From Blautia sp. (GTDB lineage: Bacteria; Bacillota; Clostridia; Lachnospirales; Lachnospiraceae): a stretch of 48,491 bases of DNA. The position numbers were made by a program, and so were the translations under genes. The notes under the pieces are model-generated. The model was not told the origin of the DNA. It worked only from the letters and a program-made list of their open reading frames with translations, and made no database searches. Of the stretch, positions 1,958-26,104 are shown one piece after another. The DNA lies in contig JAFUCO010000030.1 of the NCBI GenBank assembly GCA_017459635.1, positions 1-48,491 of the forward strand. The letters run 5' to 3'. Each line of letters begins with the position of its first letter. Positions within the stretch are counted from its first letter, which is position 1.

Positions 1958-3212
1958 TATCCGGCAGCCAGATGTGAACGGTTTTTATCCTGTTGCCGTT
2001 AAATTCATCAACTGCCAGAAGTGTTCCATCCTCAAGGATCATTTTCTGCCCGGAGGTGGGCAGTGAATCAAGCTGTTCTATAATATATCCTCCAATCGAA
2101 TCATATTCGGTTGAATTAAGGGAAAGACCAAGAGCTTCATTGATATCGTCAAGCCGTGCGGAGCCTGACGCAAGATATTCTTTTCCGGGCTGTACGGTGA
2201 TAAGATCTTCCTGCTCGTATTCATCATATTCATCGCGTATCTCACCGACGATCTCCTCGAGCAGGTCTTCCAGAGTTACAAGACCGGCGGTTGCCCCGTA
2301 TTCGTCAAGGACGAGAGCCAGGTTGACGGATGCCTTGCGCATCTCCAGAAGAAGGTCGGCAGTGGGCTTGTGTTCATAAGTGAAGTATGGTTCTCTCAGT
2401 ATATCATGTATTGAAAGCTCGCTTTCCTGAGTGTTAAGAAGCAGATCCTTCATATTTATAGTGCCTATGATGTTGTCCGTGGAGTCTTCATAGACAGGGA
2501 ATCGTGTATGACGGTGCAGACGGAATATTTCCAGAAGCTGTGACTCGGTTGAATCAACATCTACTATGTCCATATCGATGCGCGGAACCATTACATCCCT
2601 GGCAGTCGAATCACCGAAGTCAAACACATTGTAGATCATCTGCTTTTCTTCTTTTTCAATAACACCATCTTCCTGCCCGACATTTACAAGAGTCCGCAGC
2701 TCGTTTTCTGTCATGATGTTATTCCTGGCATCGGGGTCTATATGAAGAATGCGCATTATAAGACGCTCGAGCATATTGACTATCGAAATGACAGGCGTAA
2801 AAAGTACCATCACAACGTAGATTACCGGGGCATAGGAGAGCGCTGTTTTTTCGGCATGCAGGCTTGCGAGTGTTTTCGGGGTTATCTCGCCGAAAAGGAG
2901 GATGAAAAGCGTCAACAGTCCGGTTGCAGCACCGACGTATATATTACCCCATATATGTATGGTTACGCTGGTCGTGAGGGCGGAGACAGCCATGTTTACT
3001 ATATTATTCCCTATCAGGATAGCACTGAGCATCTTGGCGGGCTGTGAAATGACTTTGTTAAGCGTTACAGCCCGTTTGTTTCCTTCCTCGATAAGCGAAC
3101 GCACCCGTATATGGCTTACTGTGGTAAGCGCGGTTTCTGCGGAAGAGAAAAACGAAGACAGCGTTATCAGTATAACGATGGCTGCCAGGTCGATAATAAT
3201 TTCCGTATTCAA
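1920..3212 (-). CDS. CorC/CNNM-type (HlyC/CorC family) membrane protein with CBS domains
   Basis: About 430 residues in the DUF21 - tandem CBS - CorC_HlyC order. An N-terminal transmembrane block includes the family signature SSFFSSAETALT and FGEITPK; paired CBS domains follow in the middle (segments RDVMVPRIDM and LALVLDEYGATAGLVTLEDLLEEIVGEI), then a CorC_HlyC tail. Relatives take part in Mg2+/Co2+ homeostasis or efflux; the hemolysin name is historical. The start is taken at a TTG (3210-3212), six bases after GGAGG; an upstream in-frame TTG at 3249-3251 would add 13 residues but has no clear ribosome binding site. It is transcribed divergently from the SCIFF operon from its own promoter. 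The transported ion cannot be read from the sequence. Confidence 0.88.
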   Translation of the reverse strand: MNTEIIIDLAAIVILITLSSFFSSAETALTTVSHIRVRSLIEEGNKRAVTLNKVISQPAKMLSAILIGNNIVNMAVSALTTSVTIHIWGNIYVGAATGLLTLFILLFGEITPKTLASLHAEKTALSYAPVIYVVMVLFTPVISIVNMLERLIMRILHIDPDARNNIMTENELRTLVNVGQEDGVIEKEEKQMIYNVFDFGDSTARDVMVPRIDMDIVDVDSTESQLLEIFRLHRHTRFPVYEDSTDNIIGTINMKDLLLNTQESELSIHDILREPYFTYEHKPTADLLLEMRKASVNLALVLDEYGATAGLVTLEDLLEEIVGEIRDEYDEYEQEDLITVQPGKEYLASGSARLDDINEALGLSLNSTEYDSIGGYIIEQLDSLPTSGQKMILEDGTLLAVDEFNGNRIKTVHIWLPDKNEGADGSALPG

Positions 3213-3280
3213 AATACCCCTCCAATTCAGATCCGATGTAAGAAGTAACAATAAAAGAGACAGGCATAGGACTGAAAAGT

Positions 3281-3309
3281 ATTATAATTCTATATGCCGG
3301 TTTTTTCAA
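3281..3309 (-). promoter_or_regulatory. Sigma-A-type promoter of the CorC-like gene
   Basis: On the minus strand TTGAAA (3304-3309), a 17-nt spacer and perfect TATAAT (3281-3286), 69 nt before the chosen start. It sits back to back with the SCIFF promoter. Confidence 0.75.
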
Positions 3310-3336
3310 GTTCCCTGTGTTTCTCAAAAAAAGCTC

Positions 3337-3365
3337 TTTAAAAATGAAAAGCGCTGTGATATACT
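3337..3365 (+). promoter_or_regulatory. Promoter of the SCIFF operon
   Basis: TTTAAA (3337-3342), a 17-nt spacer and TATACT (3360-3365), 35 nt before the SCIFF start codon. The -35 box is weak and the -10 box good. Confidence 0.6.
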
Positions 3366-3400
3366 TACGAGAGCGACTATCTAAAGAGGAGGAAATATTG

Positions 3401-3541
3401 ATGGAACATATCAAAACACTTAACACAAAGAATCTGCAGAATACCGTAAAGAAGGGTGGATGCGGCGAATGCCAGACATCCTGCCAGTCAGCATGCAAGA
3501 CATCCTGCACAGTCGGAAATCAGAGCTGCGAACATAAGTAA
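3401..3541 (+). CDS. scfA: SCIFF ranthipeptide precursor (six cysteines in forty-five residues)
   Basis: A 46-residue peptide with cysteines at 21, 24, 28, 32, 36 and 43, exactly the SCIFF pattern, with threonines interspersed in the C-terminal half. In characterised SCIFF peptides the partner radical-SAM enzyme joins cysteine sulfur to side-chain carbons of residues such as threonine, giving a sactipeptide-like ranthipeptide. The N-terminal 20 residues (MEHIKTLNTKNLQNTVKKGG) are the conserved leader. The ATG at 3401 is chosen because AGGAGG lies eight bases upstream; a longer frame from 3317 has no such site and would break the conserved N-terminus. The maturase gene follows 212 nt later and secDF comes after it, the usual neighbourhood. 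The biological role is debated; a quorum or signalling function has been proposed for ranthipeptides. No dedicated protease or exporter lies next to it. Confidence 0.95.
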   Translation: MEHIKTLNTKNLQNTVKKGGCGECQTSCQSACKTSCTVGNQSCEHK

Positions 3542-3577
3542 GATTGATCCAGGCAACCGTTTTTTCGCGAAGGCTGA

Positions 3578-3603
3578 AAGCCCCGCAGGCTCCTGCGGGG
3601 CTT
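3578..3603 (+). promoter_or_regulatory. Intercistronic GC-rich hairpin between SCIFF and its maturase
   Basis: A perfect 12-bp stem (AAGCCCCGCAGG with its complement) closes on a 2-nt gap, so in practice a 4-6 nt loop. It is followed by CATAATTG rather than a T-run. It looks like an attenuator or a 3'-end-stabilising stem that would let more peptide than enzyme be made from one promoter; a full terminator is less likely because no new promoter is obvious downstream. Confidence 0.65.
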
Positions 3604-3753
3604 CATAATTGCATAGGATCTTAAACTGCATCGGCAGTTTTATGGTCCGTACCCGCCCGGGCTGCTTTTGAGGTGATCTATCTCAGGCACCCTGGAAAAG
3701 TGATAAAACGATGCCGGTGAACTGTGATCTGAAAAATGGAATGGAGTGTGTGT

Positions 3754-5118
3754 ATGAGTCTGATTCACCGCTATCGGAGCAATGGATACAACATTGTTCT
3801 GGATATCAACAGTGGATCCATTCATCTGGTGGATGATGCTGCTTATGATGTGCTGCCATATCTGGAGGAGCATGTGGATGATGATGAGATAGTGTCGCGC
3901 CTGTCAGGGACATATCCTGAGGCGGACATACGTTCATCCATAAGTGAGTGCCGGGAGCTGGAAGCACAGGGGATGCTTTTTACAAAGGACATATATCGCG
4001 AGGCGATAGATGCATTTACGGGAGCACGGCAGACAGTTGTAAAAGCACTTTGCCTGCATGTTGCCCATGACTGCAATCTTGCCTGCAGATACTGCTTTGC
4101 GGAGGAGGGTGAGTACCATGGCCGCAGGGCGCTTATGTCATTTGAGACGGGAAGAGAGGCGCTTGATTTCCTGATAGCGTCTTCCGGAAACAGGACAAAC
4201 CTTGAAGTGGATTTTTTCGGCGGCGAGCCACTGATGAACTGGGAAGTTGTCAAACAGCTCGTAGCCTACGGAAGGTCAAGGGAAAAGGAGTGCAATAAGA
4301 AATTCCGTTTTACCCTTACGACCAACGGCGTCCTGCTTAATGATGAGATCATGGAGTTCTGCAACCGTGAGATGGGTAATGTGGTTCTCTCGATAGATGG
4401 CAGGAAGGAAGTCCATGACAGGATGCGCCCGTTCAGAAGCGGCCATGGCAGCTATGACATGATAGTCCCGAAGTTCCTGAAGTTTGCTGAGTCACGCGGC
4501 CAGGAAAGGTACTATGTAAGGGGAACCTTCACGCATTTCAATACGGATTTCGCATCTGACGTGCTTCATCTGGCTGATCTGGGCTTCAAACAGATATCGG
4601 TTGAACCGGTGGTTGCCCCTAAGGATGAACAGTATGCGATCACGGAAGAGGACATCCCTGTGATATTTGAACAGTACGACTTCCTGGCACGTGAAATGAT
4701 AAAACGTGAAAAGGAAGGACGCGGATTCAATTTCTTCCATTTTATGATCGACCTGACAGGAGGGCCCTGCGTTTACAAACGGCTGAGCGGATGCGGTTCA
4801 GGAACCGAGTATCTTGCTGTTACGCCCTGGGGTGATCTTTATCCCTGCCACCAGTTTGCGGGGGAGGAGAAGTTCCTGCTTGGAAATGTCCGGGAGGGCA
4901 TCCTGCATCCAGAGATCAGTGAAGAGTTTGGCAGATGCAATGTTTATTCAAAGCCGGAATGCGCAGACTGTTTTGCAAGGTTTTACTGCAGCGGCGGGTG
5001 CGCGGCAAATGCCAGCCATTTTACCGGTGAGATCACAGGCAATTACAGGATCGGATGCGAGCTGCAGCGTAAACGCGTTGAGTGCGCCATCATGATCAAA
5101 GCCGCGTTTGCGGAGTAA
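3754..5118 (+). CDS. scfB: SCIFF maturase, thioether-forming radical-SAM/SPASM enzyme
   Basis: A 454-residue radical-SAM protein that installs thioether cross-links in the SCIFF peptide. The N-terminal roughly 90 residues (HRYRSNGYNIVLDINSGS onward) resemble the precursor-binding RRE-like region of this family. The [4Fe-4S]-AdoMet motif is CNLACRYC with Cys107, Cys111 and Cys114. The C-terminal SPASM region is cysteine-rich (GGPC, SGCGSG, YPCHQF, CADCFARFYCSGGC) and should hold two auxiliary Fe-S clusters. The ATG at 3754 is preferred because GGAG sits seven bases upstream and the family starts near this position; an ATG at 3736 would add six residues. The gene lies 24 nt before secDF and is probably co-transcribed with it. 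Confidence 0.95.
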   Translation: MSLIHRYRSNGYNIVLDINSGSIHLVDDAAYDVLPYLEEHVDDDEIVSRLSGTYPEADIRSSISECRELEAQGMLFTKDIYREAIDAFTGARQTVVKALCLHVAHDCNLACRYCFAEEGEYHGRRALMSFETGREALDFLIASSGNRTNLEVDFFGGEPLMNWEVVKQLVAYGRSREKECNKKFRFTLTTNGVLLNDEIMEFCNREMGNVVLSIDGRKEVHDRMRPFRSGHGSYDMIVPKFLKFAESRGQERYYVRGTFTHFNTDFASDVLHLADLGFKQISVEPVVAPKDEQYAITEEDIPVIFEQYDFLAREMIKREKEGRGFNFFHFMIDLTGGPCVYKRLSGCGSGTEYLAVTPWGDLYPCHQFAGEEKFLLGNVREGILHPEISEEFGRCNVYSKPECADCFARFYCSGGCAANASHFTGEITGNYRIGCELQRKRVECAIMIKAAFAE

Positions 5119-18507: not shown

Positions 18508-19614
18508 TCAGTTTGTCTGGTCGTAGGTTTCGTCTATTTCTATAGAGCCGAACAGGGCGTCGCCGAAGGCTTTTCCGGGGTCGGTGAGTTTCCATGAGAC
18601 ACCGTCATTTTTCAGGTTAAATGTTATGTTGCTGTCATTGACGGCAGTATTCTCATCAAGACATCTGAGGAGAAGCTCTCTTGAATGGGTAAGGCGGGTT
18701 TCGGCGCCGTCGATGACGGCATCAGCTGTGCCAAGGTATGCATCCATCTGAGAGTGGTAATTATCCATAATGGCGTCGCTGTCAAATGAGGTTATGCGTG
18801 CTTCGACCTCTGCAGAGCTTTTATTTATGGTGCTTCCAAGTACTTCGTAGTTGAAATGCTCATGGGCCTGCTCTGCCATCGCATTGTAAATGCTGCTGAG
18901 GGTATCATCCGAATTGTTTATCAGTTCAGCTATCCCGAGGTAATTGCACAGGTCATCGATGTTCATTTTACGTATCGTATTAAGATAAATATTGAGAGTT
19001 TCCTCCGGGGTGAGGATATATGAATCAGAAAGCCAGGTGATAAGCCCGCCTACGAGCTGGTTTTCGAGGACGGATGTGTGATTTACTCTCCATCCGGCAT
19101 CTGTTTTTGAAAGCCGCAGTGTACAGTCTGACTCTGTAAATTCATATTCACCTGTTTTAAGAAGGTGGTTGAGGAGAAGATATCGTTCCTCCGTAGTCAT
19201 TTTGCTGCTTTCGCCGGCGGCCTCGTCTTCTATCGATTCCCTCAGGGAAGAGGAGGCAAAATCTTTTGACAGTGATTTGGCGTCAATGGTTTTAAGACGT
19301 ACGGAGGCACTGGCAGTCTTGCCGTCATCAGAAATGTCTGCAGACAGGATTTCATAGTCGAAATTCTTGAAGAAGAGTGAAAAGACATCCTTCACTTCTT
19401 CTGTGCTGGACATATCCGGAGACCATGAATCATCGTGAAACAGTTCAGTCTGGCTTAAGTATGAGTATGCCTCATCCGGATCCAGGCTTTTGAGAGGATC
19501 CAGTTCCGCGGCTACTGCCTTTCTGACTGCCGTATTGATATTTCCACCGCATCCGGCAGTTAAAAGCAGGATAATACTTAAGAATGTATATAGCACATGT
19601 CTGGCGGCTTTCAT
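18508..19614 (-). CDS. Secreted lipoprotein with two tandem NTF2-like repeats
   Basis: A 368-residue exported lipoprotein of unknown function. The N-terminus MKAARHVLYTF is followed by a hydrophobic run and a lipobox ending LTAGC, so Cys becomes the lipidated residue. Two similar halves follow: one around SLDPDEAYSYLSQTELF to the VRLKT segment, the other around LTPEETLNIYLNTIRKM to the ARITSFD segment. Each has an N-terminal helix pair, then FDYEILS/FNYEVLG and a charged strand, an arrangement like NTF2-like or DUF4878/DUF5105-type domains. The ATG at 19614 is chosen over 19728 because it directly precedes the signal sequence and has AAGGA nine bases ahead. It is transcribed divergently from the exporter operon and could be an accessory subunit; this is inference from position only. 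Confidence 0.75.
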   Translation of the reverse strand: MKAARHVLYTFLSIILLLTAGCGGNINTAVRKAVAAELDPLKSLDPDEAYSYLSQTELFHDDSWSPDMSSTEEVKDVFSLFFKNFDYEILSADISDDGKTASASVRLKTIDAKSLSKDFASSSLRESIEDEAAGESSKMTTEERYLLLNHLLKTGEYEFTESDCTLRLSKTDAGWRVNHTSVLENQLVGGLITWLSDSYILTPEETLNIYLNTIRKMNIDDLCNYLGIAELINNSDDTLSSIYNAMAEQAHEHFNYEVLGSTINKSSAEVEARITSFDSDAIMDNYHSQMDAYLGTADAVIDGAETRLTHSRELLLRCLDENTAVNDSNITFNLKNDGVSWKLTDPGKAFGDALFGSIEIDETYDQTN

Positions 19615-19714
19615 GAAGGTCGTTCCTTTCTGGGAATGTTCTGAATTATGCTCGTAAATCATGTGTTGCCTCATGCACAAAAATATTATGGAGGTACATG
19701 AAATAGTCCTGTTC

Positions 19715-19743
19715 ATTATAACAGACATTTATATGTTTGTCAA
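19715..19743 (-). promoter_or_regulatory. Consensus sigma-A promoter of the lipoprotein gene
   Basis: On the minus strand a perfect TTGACA (19738-19743), a 17-nt spacer and perfect TATAAT (19715-19720), giving a leader of about 95 nt before the start codon. This is the best consensus promoter in the window. Confidence 0.88.
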
Positions 19744-19912: not shown

Positions 19913-21517
19913 ATGAAAAAAGGTGCTGTCGCTGCCCTGATCGTACTGCTTGCCGGCGCAGGAGGGGCTGCCGGGTGGTATTATTATAATGGCGGAAGCT
20001 TCATTCCGGCCGTAGAGAGCAAGAGTACTGTATATGCGACGCTTGTGAGCACCATAATGGGCAGAATATCCGGCGCGGAAAACCGGTTTGCCGGAGTGGT
20101 TGAAGCGCAGGAGACTGTAGCAGTCCAGAAGGATCCCGACCGTAAGGTGAGCGAGGTAAAGGTCAAAGTCGGGGATGAAGTGAAAAAAGGCCAGATACTT
20201 TTTGAATATGATCTGAGCAGCATAGAAGACAAGCTCAATGAGGCAAGGCTGGAGCTGGAACGTCTCCAGAATGAAGCAATAGAAATAACAAACCAGATCA
20301 ATACGACCGAGGCTGAAAAGACAAAAAAGGAAAATGCTGATAAGCAGCTGGAGCTTATGATACAGATACAGCAGGCTCAGCTCAATCTGAAAAAAAATGA
20401 ATATGACCAGAAGAGCAAAGAGGCCGAGATCGTGCGTCTTGAAAATGCTACCGGAAATACGCTTGTGACAAGCGAGATCGACGGCATTGTACAGAAAATA
20501 GATACAAGCAAGCTCAGCACTGCAGACGATACGGCTGCTGTGACCGATTCACTGGAGCAGTCAGGATATAACTCCGGGACAGAAAACTCAGGTGATGCGT
20601 TTATCACCATACTGAGTACCGGAGAGTACCGTGTAAAAGGTACTGTAAACGAACTGAACCGGAGCGAGATAGTTTTCGGGCAGGGAGCCATAATAAGATC
20701 AAGGGCTGACGAGACGATGACCTGGCATGGCATTATGGGAAATGTGGACAGCCAGAACAGTAAGACAGCCGGGAGCAATGATATGTACTCCTCCTATGGA
20801 AATGATTCGATGACATCTTCGAGTTCCTATCCGTTCTATGTTGAACTTGAATCATCTGAAGGACTGATGCTCGGCCAGCATGTGTACATTGAGATCGACG
20901 TAGGACAGGAGGAACAGAAAAGCGGGATATGGCTTCAGGAGGATTTCATTGACGGCCTTGATACGGACGAACCGTTCGTTTGGGCAGCGGATGAGAACAG
21001 CCGGCTTGTAAAGAAACCGGTCACCCTTGGCGAACATGATATGTACGAGCTTAAGTACGAGATCCTGGACGGTATCACCGAGGATGACTATATAGCATTT
21101 CCTTCCCGCAGCCTTGAAGAAGGAATGCCTGTGAAGCCCGGTACACTTGACCAGACTGTAATATATGATGATTACGATGAGTCCTATGACGATGAATACG
21201 GAATGTATGACGAGTACGGCGAGTATGGCGATGAGATGTATGATGAATCGTACGATATGATGCCGGGTGAGGAATATGCTGACGAGGATGGAGTATATAA
21301 GAATGAGATCGGAATAGATTCCGGTGAAATATTTGATGATACCGAAGTGTGGGATGATTCCTGGTACATGGATGAGAGCACAGGGGATGAGCCGTACGTG
21401 ATGGAAGGCGATGAAGTATATGTCGTTGATGATGCTGAAATGGGTTTTCCTGATGAGAACGTCGAGATCATAGACGATTTCCCTGAGGACTACCCTGAAG
21501 AAGACAGTTTCAACTGA
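19913..21517 (+). CDS. MacA/HlyD-like membrane fusion protein with an acidic tail
   Basis: A 534-residue periplasmic-adaptor-type protein for a MacB-like ABC exporter. One N-terminal membrane segment (about residues 5-25) is followed by a half-lipoyl/barrel region (FAGVVEAQETVAVQ, VKVGDEVKKGQILFEYD), a coiled-coil hairpin at about 85-175, the returning lipoyl half (SEIDGIVQKID) and a barrel segment (GEYRVKGTVNELNRSEI). From residue 418 to the end runs a 117-residue tail dominated by Asp, Glu and Tyr (DDEYGMYDEYGEYGDE); by my count 48 acidic residues and one lysine. Such a tail is not part of the standard fold. In a monoderm the adaptor would sit outside the membrane, reaching into the wall. 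It is the first gene of an operon with an ATPase, a second adaptor and a permease. Confidence 0.85.
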   Translation: MKKGAVAALIVLLAGAGGAAGWYYYNGGSFIPAVESKSTVYATLVSTIMGRISGAENRFAGVVEAQETVAVQKDPDRKVSEVKVKVGDEVKKGQILFEYDLSSIEDKLNEARLELERLQNEAIEITNQINTTEAEKTKKENADKQLELMIQIQQAQLNLKKNEYDQKSKEAEIVRLENATGNTLVTSEIDGIVQKIDTSKLSTADDTAAVTDSLEQSGYNSGTENSGDAFITILSTGEYRVKGTVNELNRSEIVFGQGAIIRSRADETMTWHGIMGNVDSQNSKTAGSNDMYSSYGNDSMTSSSSYPFYVELESSEGLMLGQHVYIEIDVGQEEQKSGIWLQEDFIDGLDTDEPFVWAADENSRLVKKPVTLGEHDMYELKYEILDGITEDDYIAFPSRSLEEGMPVKPGTLDQTVIYDDYDESYDDEYGMYDEYGEYGDEMYDESYDMMPGEEYADEDGVYKNEIGIDSGEIFDDTEVWDDSWYMDESTGDEPYVMEGDEVYVVDDAEMGFPDENVEIIDDFPEDYPEEDSFN

Positions 21518-21630
21518 CTTTAAAGCTGCGGCTCTGAGACAGGCTGTCCATTAAAAAACGAGACAGGCAGACCGGGAGACTTATGCAGCGGCAGTGCTGC
21601 TGCGCATTATATGTAAACTTAAGGAGAGAT

Positions 21631-22311
21631 ATGGGAAACGGACTGATCCTCGACCTGAGGGGCATTTATAAAAATTACTATCAGGGAAAATATGTAGTTG
21701 AAGCACTACGCGATGTCAGCTTCCAGATGGAGGAAGGTGAATACGTGGCGATCATGGGACCTTCGGGATCAGGAAAGAGTACACTTATGAATATAATAGG
21801 CTGTCTGGACCAGGCTACAAGAGGGAGTTTTTATCTGGACGGTCAGGATGTGAGCAAACTGAGTGAAAACGAGATGTCGGATATTCGCCTTAAGAAGATC
21901 GGGTTTGTATTTCAGAGTTTCCATCTTCTTCCGCGGCAGAGCGCGTTGACAAATGTTGAGATGCCGCTCAACTATGCGCATGTACCCAGAAAGGAGAGGC
22001 GGGAAAGGGCGTTAAGGGCACTTGAAAGGGTGGGCCTTGCCGACCGTGTGGACTTTCGGCCGAATCAGCTTTCGGGCGGACAGATGCAGAGAGTGGCGAT
22101 CGCGCGTGCCATGGTCAATAATCCACGGCTGCTTCTTGCCGATGAGCCGACAGGAGCACTGGACAGCCGTTCGGGGGCAGCTATAATGGAACTGTTCCAG
22201 AAGCTTAACGAAGAAGGTGTTTCGGTACTGATGATCACACACGATGCAGAGATCGCATCACATGCAAGGCGGGTCGTAACCATCCGTGACGGAATCCTTA
22301 AGGAGGAGTAA
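21631..22311 (+). CDS. MacB/LolD-type ABC transporter ATP-binding protein
   Basis: A 226-residue ATPase of the MacB/LolD/YknY group. Walker A GPSGSGKST is at residues 43-51; the Q-loop is in GFVFQSFHLLPRQSALTNVE; the signature is LSGGQMQRVAIARAM; Walker B is LLLADEPTGALD; the H-loop is in VLMITHDAEIASHA. The start at 21631 follows AAGGAGAGAT; a frame from 21583 would add 16 residues with no matching site. It is the only ATPase in the operon and would form a homodimer with the permease at 24851. It ends four bases before the second adaptor. The 113 nt between the first adaptor and this gene hold only small stems and a GCAGCGGCAGTGCTGCTGC palindrome. Confidence 0.92.
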   Translation: MGNGLILDLRGIYKNYYQGKYVVEALRDVSFQMEEGEYVAIMGPSGSGKSTLMNIIGCLDQATRGSFYLDGQDVSKLSENEMSDIRLKKIGFVFQSFHLLPRQSALTNVEMPLNYAHVPRKERRERALRALERVGLADRVDFRPNQLSGGQMQRVAIARAMVNNPRLLLADEPTGALDSRSGAAIMELFQKLNEEGVSVLMITHDAEIASHARRVVTIRDGILKEE

Positions 22312-22315
22312 AAGC

Positions 22316-24826
22316 ATGGGCAAAGCGAAAAGATGGATCGCCGCGCTTGTTGCTGTATCCCTTGCAGCTGCAGGCGGTTATAAGGGCCTTATGTATCTGA
22401 AGGAGAAAAACACTCCTGAGGTAATCGTTGTCGATGTAGGACAGCTGATACAGGAGGATTATTACAGCTTTGATTATGGCGATTCTTCGCTTTCGGGATC
22501 CATCACGACAAATGTGATCCAGAATATCAGGATAGATAAGGACGTAATCGTAAAGGACCTTCTTGTAAATCAGGGTGATCCCGTAAAGCAGGGGGATCTT
22601 CTGATGACTATTGATACAACTCTGGACGAGATGGAACTGGGACTCAGGGATCTTGAGCATCAGAAGCTTCTTATTGATCTGGAAAAAGCACGTGACCGGC
22701 TTTACAGTCTTCAGCATGGAGGGCCGATTACAGTTTCTGACGGTTCCCAGGACGGAAGCTCTGGTGAGAGCGCTCCGGACGGCAGCACTTCGGATGAAAG
22801 CTCTGTAGTGATCATCGGAGCCGCGATGAGTGCAGGAACACATTATCTTGCGGCCGCGTTTCCGGGGATTCTGGCAGCTGACCTGATATCTGACGGGGGA
22901 GAACTTACATCGCAGGGAGGAGATCTGAGCACCGAAGGAGAATATGCCGGGTACGAGGATCTTACCCAGGACGTGCCAGGCAGTACGGATGATTATTTTA
23001 TAGATGAGGGAGCAGATATCGGCATCACTGATACTATTGAAAGCGGAGACCAGATACTGGAAGGCGGAGGACAGGAATACTCCGGGGACATCACCTATAC
23101 GGAGGATCTTTTTGAACCGGCAGATGATATCGGCGATGGGACTGAGGATCTGCTGACGGATGAAGACATTACAGGCGATATCAGTACTCTGGTCGAAGAA
23201 ACAGATGACGCAGAAGGCGAACTGGTTCCGGAAGGCCCGGAGACGACACCTGTACCAACTGTAACACCCGTACCGACAGACGTTCCATTTAAAGTGCCTG
23301 ATCCTTCCGGCGACAAAGAAACTTTTTATGACGTCCTGGATTATGATGCCATACCTTATGAAGGCGAAGGAACCGAAGAGAAACCATATGTGTTCCTATG
23401 CAGTTCGGATGATGATTATATATACATTAAAGGCAGGTTCCTGAATGTAATGAGGGGATTTGATCCTGAAGGCAAGGCGTCTGTACATGAAGGGGGATAC
23501 TGGTACCAGCTGGAATTCTATGAAGATGACATATATGGGGAGGCGTCAAAGGACATTGAAGGGACAGCCGGTACTGGAGAACTCGTGACAGATGACTACT
23601 CTGGCGTGTCGGACTATGCGGGCAGCCCTGATTATGCAGATGCTGCAGGCTATGCAGATGGTATGGATTATGCAGAGGGCATAGAAGCTGCAGATGACAA
23701 AGCCGGTGAGGATGATTCATATTATGCAGATGGTGATGATTATACGTATGATGACGACTATACATACGGTTCAGACTATGATGAGGATTATGGATACACA
23801 GGTGAATCCGGCTACCTGATCTATACCTTCCCGCGCTATGCGTTAATAAACGGGGGCGGGGATGATGTATTTGACAAATACTGGGAAAAGGTTAAAGAAA
23901 ACGGCCGTTGGAACCCGGATGATGAAGAGAGATTTTATATCTACAATGCAGTCGGCGATGACTACTATATTCCTTCTGACGATGGAGAGTATTATGAATA
24001 TGAAGAAACCTGGGAGGAAGAATACGAGGACACTGAAGAAGAAAATGGCATGACGCGTGAGGAAGCGATAAAAGCAGCGGAAGATAATATACGCAGTCTG
24101 GAATACCAGGTAAAAGCATCCGAGGTAAATCTTGCCAAACTCCGGAAGAAATGCGAGATAAAAGAAATATACAGCAGACTTGACGGGACGATAATTTATG
24201 CCGGAAACCCGGACGCAGGGACAAGCAGCATGGATTCGTTTCTCCGCGTCAAGAGCCAGGAGGGATTTTTTGTCAGCGGACAGGTCAGTGAAATGATGCT
24301 GGACCAGCTGGTTCAGGGAACAGTCATAAAGTGTACGACTGATATGGGAGAAACCTTTGACGCCGAGGTGATAGAGGTTGCTGAATATCCCGAGTCGCAG
24401 GATTCAGGGAGCAGCTCGTATTACTATGATGGCAATCCGAATGCCTCTGTGTACGGATTTACCGCTTCGATCGCAGACCAGGATCTTGACATCAGTGAGG
24501 AAACGTATCTGATGTCAGTGGTTCTGCCGGAAACGGAAGCGGAGGAGGATCATTCACTTACGATAAACAAAGCCTTCGTAAGGTCGGACAATGGGCGCAG
24601 TTATGTTATGAAGGACCGGGACGGCGTGCTTGTGAAGCAATATGTACGCGTCGGCAAGACGGATTCGTACGGATACACTATAACTATTACAGGCGGACTT
24701 CGGAGATCTGACAAGCTTGCATTTCCGTACAGCGAAGATGCTGTTGAAGGAACCAGGACGACAGAAGGCAGCCTGGATCAGCTTTATGAGAACGATTACA
24801 GCAGCTTAATGATGATGCCGGGCTGA
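22316..24826 (+). CDS. Second HlyD-like adaptor with a giant acidic insertion
   Basis: An 836-residue adaptor, more than twice the usual size. An N-terminal membrane segment and first half-lipoyl stretch (IVKDLLVNQGDPVKQGDLLM) lead into a helix ending near residue 132. The returning helix starts only near residue 571 (MTREEAIKAAEDNIRSLEYQ), followed by the second lipoyl half (SRLDGTIIYAG) and barrel domains. The roughly 440 residues between contain Asp/Glu/Tyr/Gly/Ser-rich low complexity, a Thr-Pro linker (TTPVPTVTPVPTDVP), a segment that looks folded (YVFLCSSDDDYIYIKGRFLN, GGYWYQLEFYEDD) and then DY/GY repeats. The insertion sits at the tip of the coiled-coil hairpin, where other adaptors meet outer-membrane or wall partners. 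The start at 22316 has AGGAGG ten bases upstream. The frame is continuous; no frameshift is needed. Confidence 0.8.
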   Translation: MGKAKRWIAALVAVSLAAAGGYKGLMYLKEKNTPEVIVVDVGQLIQEDYYSFDYGDSSLSGSITTNVIQNIRIDKDVIVKDLLVNQGDPVKQGDLLMTIDTTLDEMELGLRDLEHQKLLIDLEKARDRLYSLQHGGPITVSDGSQDGSSGESAPDGSTSDESSVVIIGAAMSAGTHYLAAAFPGILAADLISDGGELTSQGGDLSTEGEYAGYEDLTQDVPGSTDDYFIDEGADIGITDTIESGDQILEGGGQEYSGDITYTEDLFEPADDIGDGTEDLLTDEDITGDISTLVEETDDAEGELVPEGPETTPVPTVTPVPTDVPFKVPDPSGDKETFYDVLDYDAIPYEGEGTEEKPYVFLCSSDDDYIYIKGRFLNVMRGFDPEGKASVHEGGYWYQLEFYEDDIYGEASKDIEGTAGTGELVTDDYSGVSDYAGSPDYADAAGYADGMDYAEGIEAADDKAGEDDSYYADGDDYTYDDDYTYGSDYDEDYGYTGESGYLIYTFPRYALINGGGDDVFDKYWEKVKENGRWNPDDEERFYIYNAVGDDYYIPSDDGEYYEYEETWEEEYEDTEEENGMTREEAIKAAEDNIRSLEYQVKASEVNLAKLRKKCEIKEIYSRLDGTIIYAGNPDAGTSSMDSFLRVKSQEGFFVSGQVSEMMLDQLVQGTVIKCTTDMGETFDAEVIEVAEYPESQDSGSSSYYYDGNPNASVYGFTASIADQDLDISEETYLMSVVLPETEAEEDHSLTINKAFVRSDNGRSYVMKDRDGVLVKQYVRVGKTDSYGYTITITGGLRRSDKLAFPYSEDAVEGTRTTEGSLDQLYENDYSSLMMMPG

Positions 24827-24850: not shown

Positions 24851-26104
<1,254 letters not shown>

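Follow-up and report, generated by a model that had tools for sequence, protein, structure and literature searches.

A long acidic insertion, very probably at the hairpin tip, in the second adaptor of a MacAB-like exporter of Blautia

According to the excerpts of the sources cited here, the hairpin tip of the adaptor MacA docks to TolC (PMC5985334), the conservation of the hairpin in Gram-positive adaptors has been called puzzling in one review (PMC4338810), and another review asks what adaptors do without an outer membrane (PMC5985334). The adaptor Spr0693 of Streptococcus pneumoniae is a hexamer with a helical barrel approximately 31 Å wide; its hairpin tip (residues 142-163, approximately 22 residues) was not traced, and the apex of the modelled assembly stands approximately 154 Å from the membrane, at a height like that of the inner wall zone (PMC5768738). 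YknX has been reported to bind peptidoglycan (PMC5985334), monoderm MacAB-like pumps have been tied to peptide resistance (PMC5985334, PMC5768738), and a single pump requires the two different adaptors TriA and TriB (PMC4338810). This study analyzed a window of 48,491 nucleotides (positions 1 to 48,491, forward strand, of contig JAFUCO010000030.1 in assembly GCA_017459635.1) from a 2.67-Mb Blautia sp. draft genome that is 66.8% complete, and focused on the gene at 22316-24826, which encodes an adaptor, here called B, with a long acidic insertion between the arms of its hairpin.

A split second adaptor in a MacAB-like operon

The gene for B is an open reading frame of 836 amino acids on the + strand (22316-24826) and the third gene of a four-gene operon in the order adaptor A, ATP-binding cassette (ABC) ATPase, adaptor B, and MacB-like permease. 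An alternative in-frame GTG lies upstream at 22286; the ATG at 22316 was taken as the start because the closest relatives (L193, L194, and L195) also open with MG(K/R)AK(R/K)W. A profile of 50 B proteins (A5) matched Spr0693 (PDB 5xu0, E 1.5e-23) in two stretches flanking the insertion, so the two arms of B are not a chance resemblance. The profile also revealed the layout of the adaptor superfamily, namely a split lipoyl domain flanking a hairpin, followed by a beta-barrel. The B sequence by itself scored under the library cut-offs (24.4 of 29.8 bits for Pfam; 34.9 of 94.9 bits for NCBIfam), and it matched no chain in a PDB search. B is encoded with a MacB-type ATPase and permease, as is usual for MacA-type adaptors, whereas the short closed hairpin tip of that type is found in adaptor A and not in B. 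By its partner genes and its profile match, B is a MacA/Spr0693-like second adaptor of a predicted MacAB-like exporter. The initial annotation of this gene, made from the letters of the window, had proposed an HlyD-like adaptor in which a long insertion separates the two hairpin arms. That architecture was confirmed (approximately 440 residues with a net charge of approximately -105), whereas the label HlyD-like proved too broad, since the partner is a MacB-type permease. A type-I HlyD adaptor was rejected (TIGR01843, 22.6 bits against a cut-off of 208.65 bits).

In the N-terminal part of B, a hydrophobic segment following Lys/Arg residues was recognized by inspection as a putative membrane anchor (residues 6-27, 22331-22396). 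Hairpin arm 1 (residues 101-134, 22616-22717) and arm 2 (residues 576-612, 24041-24151) were located by alignment and covariation, and the net acidic insertion lies between them (residues 135-575, 22718-24040). Arm 2 is followed by the second lipoyl half, the beta-barrel, and the membrane-proximal part (residues 613-826, 24152-24793), which were placed by the match to Spr0693 5xu0.

To compare B among its relatives, 139 B loci were reduced to 125 distinct proteins by merging those with identical C-terminal 400 residues. Two of these (L082 and L108), in which the gene is cut by the contig, were dropped from the length statistics, which left 123 complete proteins; truncated B proteins (L195 and L209), G180, and L263-L265 stand outside both counts. 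In L265, adaptor B is split into two adjoining frames (2406-4189). The same architecture was found in all 123 complete proteins and across the genus, and a gene fusion or assembly error was rejected on this ground.

We then asked whether the two arms pair by calculating mutual information with average-product correction for the 123 B proteins (effective number 91). The top antiparallel band placed the end of arm 1 opposite the start of arm 2, and when the columns were permuted 500 times, 3 permutations reached it. Of the 20 strongest couplings in the block, 16 fell in sums 189-196. The hairpin of adaptor A, which has no interruption and served as the positive control, gave 0 of 500, and the counts for three negative controls taken from B were 46, 69, and 408 of 500. 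The antiparallel covariation of the arms therefore places the insertion at the hairpin tip. These results indicate that the arms very probably form a hairpin carrying the insertion at its tip; as far as covariation can test it, the topology that the initial annotation had derived from the known fold was supported, and no sign of unpaired arms was obtained.

Adaptor A (19913-21517, + strand, 534 amino acids) has a short hairpin with a span of 83 residues and an acidic C-terminal tail of approximately 125 residues, which is rich in Asp, Glu, Tyr, and Met (21143-21517). It scored 31.3 bits against PF13533 (cut-off, 29.8) and 51.2 bits against TIGR01730, below the cut-off of 94.9, and it matched MacA (PDB 4dk0, E 2.3e-5) and Spr0693 (5xu0, E 0.0012). 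The ATPase (21583-22311, + strand) is of the MacB/LolD type (PF00005, E 1.7e-36); its top NCBIfam match was the ATPase part of MacB, at 267 bits against a cut-off of 966 that is set for the whole fused protein. The permease (24851-26104, + strand, 417 amino acids) matched MacB_PCD (E 3.2e-31) and FtsX (E 6.7e-19) and, in the PDB, MacB (5lil, E 4.1e-55), Spr0695 (5xu1, E 2e-50), and the extracellular domain of YknZ (5f9q, E 1.4e-8). A comparison with PADLOC revealed similarity for the ATPase and permease only, and a plasmid search with this system yielded no match.

The insertion and its conserved domain

The insertion of B comprises 440 amino acids in the multiple alignment or 447 by profile boundaries, either of which may move by several residues, and it carries a net charge of -105. 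A tip insertion was present in all 123 complete B proteins, with a very unequal length of 65-738 amino acids (quartiles 170, 265, and 323.5); six insertions reached at least 440. In contrast to this range, the hairpin span of adaptor A, measured where the protein exceeded 330 amino acids, remained between 72 and 92 (median 82; 120 proteins). All 123 insertions were net acidic, with a mean of -0.163 per residue compared with -0.065 elsewhere in B. The C-terminal tail of adaptor A had a median of 88.5 residues, and all 112 tails of at least 20 residues were net negative.

In 67 of the 123 insertions, some stretch of 15 residues contained eight or more Pro/Thr; the acidic PARP repeat model matched six insertions, and the PT repeat model matched two. 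Three surface-type modules were also identified, namely FctA (L206, E 4.9e-14), Big_2 (L072, E 4.7e-19), and Cna_B (E 2.7e-9); the protein holding Cna_B was not among the five insertions that were scanned singly. In L206, a Spy0128-like (FctA) pilin isopeptide domain and a long Ser/Glu/Lys/Pro repeat stand inside a pump adaptor, and an FctA-like sequence was recognized by eye in L209. NCBIfam adhesin and TonB matches for a few insertions are probably driven by composition, and a single weak match to an amidase protein was obtained (E 0.0059). Pro/Thr-rich and acidic repeats and Ig-like or pilin modules are kinds of sequence used for extracellular stalks.

Within the acidic linker of B lies a hydrophobic motif, HYLAAAFPGILAADLI (22841-22888, residues approximately 176-191), of the type YLAAA..P.LLAA. 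This pattern, which was devised after the sequences had been viewed, occurred in 30 of the 34 B proteins of a Blautia group, off register in a few of them (L193, L194, and L103), compared with a mean of 4.6 and a maximum of 10 in shuffled linkers; it occurred in 23 of the 89 other B proteins. The group was assembled by locus titles, genus kinship, and nearness, and takes in L087 and L100, which are not titled Blautia. The motif is followed by a Thr-Pro linker evident in the sequence (residues approximately 308-325, 23237-23290). DNA tandem repeats were considered as a source of the acidic loop, and none was found in the B gene; L195 contains an 18-bp repeat in 5.4 copies.

Beyond this linker, the initial annotation had singled out residues 333-408 (23312-23539) as a segment that looks folded. 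The segment forms part of a conserved domain of approximately 95 positions: a profile built without this protein matched it at residues 337-409 with E 2.6e-20. Some G, P, N, and E residues of the domain are near-invariant, and its motif resembles PYxGxGTxEDPYxFLC...GSFLN...LEI...G.L...W...G. In the B protein at 22316-24826, the domain seems to be split by an Asp-, Tyr-, and Gly-rich stretch of approximately 90 residues (residues 409-498, 23540-23809), for which the alignment offers 24 residues of L193 and L194 in place of 90. Residues 499-548 (23810-23959) are possible C-terminal strands of the domain, recognized by eye and left unplaced by the automatic alignment. The identity of the domain to those of L193 and L194 is 39-43%.

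The domain was detected in 115 of the 125 distinct B proteins (one copy in 109, two in 5, and three in 1) and in 113 of the 123 complete ones, and all copies lay inside the insertion in the 113 proteins in which both ends of the insertion were located. No credible match to the domain was obtained in Pfam, where a single one of the 23 members gave the best value (E 0.046), or among the 25 of 28 NCBIfam families listed. PDB 5v8d, the sole chain found, was set aside at E 0.65. The libraries searched returned no domain already described in many adaptors, an outcome that would have counted against the initial annotation.

Searches with the domain alone returned 32 of the 200 genomes in the family sample, including our own, all inside B (in G018, via matching open frames), and 9 of the 246 in the order sample, again all inside B. 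Two of the 291 genomes in the class sample were positive, our own and G584 (locus L213), as were two of the 249 in the phylum sample, our own and G204 (E 0.0023). The G204 hit, a recombinase-like frame, was judged a false match and rejected. L213 is, by eye, a small secreted protein with a C-terminal membrane segment, and profile comparison gave a probability of 93 over 54 columns; it may be a weak homologue of the tip domain.

B behaves as a core gene: it was present in 63 of the 64 genus genomes, including our own, and in all 34 of the better ones; a single-sequence search found it in 47 of the 200 sampled genomes of the family (Lachnospiraceae), including our own. Its rarity in samples from outside the family follows from the B-profile search of 196 class genomes, which at E 1e-15 returned only our own and G180, of the same family. 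In G479, which was assigned to the same genus, B is identical over 701 amino acids to that of Blautia sp. Marseille-P3087 (L102), and the genus was accordingly taken to be Blautia. Among 80 named loci, which are the best 80 of 177 relatives, 75 have the full order of A, ATPase, B, and permease, and the other five run to contig ends; the presence of the domain in all 80 is a biased count because all query proteins carry it. The same order was clear in 37 of 40 loci from further genomes. In L058, B scores slightly nearer to A. In a second family of the order, all four genes were found in five of the six loci (L206-L208, L210, and L211), and L209 begins inside B. On a quick tree of the 123 B proteins without the insertion, domain presence required 5 changes, compared with a mean of 14.3 in shuffles. 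Because the changes are few and the second family keeps the domain, it is probably ancestral in the order, with several losses or replacements, although this quick tree has long branches.

Possible roles of the tip

The finding of an open tip suggests a second adaptor in which the part used for docking to TolC in diderms has turned into an outward-pointing acidic stalk with a domain reaching into or through the wall, a proposal whose chances we consider evenly balanced. A and B together would form an adaptor ring on the permease, and their short helical barrel would span the space separating the membrane from the wall. On reaching the wall, at the point of TolC contact in diderm adaptors, the B tips would open and extend acidic stalks rich in Pro, Thr, and Glu, each with one to three copies of the domain, into or through the peptidoglycan. 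Such a tip would fix the pump in the wall, set its orientation, and provide the cargo with an exit that stays hydrophilic and negatively charged. The cargo would most likely consist of peptides that are cationic or amphipathic, as has been suggested for YknXYZ and Spr0693-0695. Of the functions considered, we favor that of a wall-spanning spacer, to which the Pro/Thr/Glu-rich stretches, the FctA, Big_2, and Cna_B modules, and the height of Spr0693 in the excerpted text (PMC5768738) point; the metal- or cation-binding bristle and the cargo receptor that the initial annotation had also proposed are less favored candidates. In a more specific version, which is tentative and rather doubtful, a single ring would be made of alternating A and B subunits: A would build a constant barrel, and the B tips would build a corona of acidic stalks whose new domain crosses the peptidoglycan as a wall-level exit replacing the outer-membrane channel of diderms.

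Several observations weigh against a wall-directed stalk. The 123 insertions matched 19 Pfam families at E up to 0.01, and 25 of their 28 NCBIfam families were listed; none of these is a LysM, SLH, or peptidoglycan-binding family. Each of the three surface modules occurred in a single insertion, and the likeness of L213 spans only part of the domain. Insertions of just 65 and 107 amino acids exist (L062 and L069), 10 of the 125 B proteins have no copy of the domain, and the B tip of G180 is short, Pro/Thr-rich, and without the domain; thus, neither length nor domain is strictly required.

Alternatively, the acidic brush and the domain may trap cargo, binding substrates such as cationic antimicrobial peptides outside the cell and passing them to the pump or keeping them off the membrane. 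The net acidity of every insertion is in keeping with this reading, as is the tie of monoderm MacAB-like pumps to peptide resistance in the excerpts noted above (PMC5985334, PMC5768738). A histidine kinase gene near the operon would also fit; it was found in 21 of the 130 loci whose downstream sequence extends for 2 kb or more (loci not made distinct), in 20 of them downstream of the permease, and the kinase domains were confirmed for L037 and L081. However, the acidity is not special to the tip, since the C-terminal tail of adaptor A is even more acidic, and the remainder of B also has a mild negative charge (mean -0.065). We consider a cargo trap unlikely.

A hairpin tip that has no partner might also simply gather functionless insertions, and the very wide range of lengths and the 10 proteins without the domain would be expected of such ballast. 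So would the drift of linker 1 in B, which shares 28% identity with L193 and L194, compared with 69-73% in the arms, lipoyl, and barrel parts (69% over residues 578-826). The tip of adaptor A, which likewise lacks an outer-membrane partner, nevertheless stays at a span of 72-92. In addition, the domain keeps its near-invariant G, P, N, and E in two families, its presence on the tree changes far less often than in shuffles, and the hydrophobic motif, albeit by a pattern devised after viewing, is kept in 30 of 34 proteins. We consider tolerated ballast quite improbable.

We regard as more improbable still a sensor whose tip domain responds to stress or to precursors of the wall and either gates the pump or relays a signal to the adjoining histidine kinase. 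The kinase gene (21 of 130 loci), the DUF5105 neighbor described below (37 of 104 loci), and the conserved hydrophobic motif as a potential docking element would suit this role, but the kinase is oppositely oriented in 17 of the 21 loci, and the remaining 109 loci yielded no such gene. Finally, an internal gate, in which the insertion and its conserved hydrophobic motif, set within an otherwise acidic linker, fold into the adaptor channel as a plug, is scarcely credible given up to 738 residues per subunit and, in single cases, Ig-type modules, compared with the Spr0693 barrel of approximately 31 Å in the excerpted text (PMC5768738).

Neighboring genes and comparison with known systems

Divergent from the operon, a gene at 18508-19728 on the - strand encodes a DUF5105 protein (PF17118, E 9.4e-9) that is lipoprotein-like by eye. 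A divergent DUF5105 gene lies within 1.5 kb upstream in 37 of the 104 loci whose upstream sequence extends for 2 kb or more (loci not made distinct) and at 1.6-1.8 kb in three more, and the protein is possibly a functional neighbor of the operon. A promoter-like site with 12 of 12 positions and a TG before the second hexamer is present on the DUF5105 strand at 19715-19743; such sites of any quality numbered 12 in the region overall, compared with 10.8 in shuffles. The DUF5105 and kinase neighbors hint at regulation or partners, without proving either.

A second operon, with its own A', B', and P' genes, was observed in our own genome (L034, contig C104, 1774-6587, - strand), and its permease is 78% identical. 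Blastp of all frames of at least 100 amino acids identified no ATPase gene on the L034 contig, and this operon might share the ATPase of the first. L059 and L264 also have no ATPase gene between A and B. At L257 (6460-10815, - strand), again in our own genome, a frame of 1451 amino acids with SdrD_B and DUF11 repeats encodes a large surface-type protein.

In a common gut lineage, then, one of two paired adaptors has its hairpin tip opened and the other keeps its tip short. With its own domain and acidic stalks, the opened tip renders the question of the role of adaptors testable, and it adds a protein domain absent from the libraries searched. No description of this insertion was found in the titles and abstract openings of the open-licence PMC literature. 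The MacAB-like kind of pump is already known, and what appears to be new, judging from the sequences compared, is this tip domain at an unusual place.

Spr0693-Spr0694-Spr0695 of S. pneumoniae likewise joins, in a monoderm, an adaptor to an ATPase and a permease of the MacB type, and both B and the permease match its sequences. However, one adaptor is published for it in the excerpted text (PMC5768738), whereas the Blautia system has two, one of which bears 65-738 residues and a separate domain at its tip. YknWXYZ of Bacillus also joins a monoderm MacB-like permease to an adaptor, and our permease matches YknZ (5f9q); by description, to which the comparison with YknX is confined, it has one adaptor plus YknW, and the excerpts of PMC5985334 mention no tip domain. 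MacAB-TolC shares the MacB transporter and the MacA-type adaptor, but the MacA tip docks to TolC (PMC5985334, in excerpt), whereas the tip of B would be open and decorated. TriABC-OpmH is a resistance-nodulation-division pump of a diderm and is comparable by analogy only; as described in the excerpted review (PMC4338810), it resembles the Blautia system in having two adaptors per pump.

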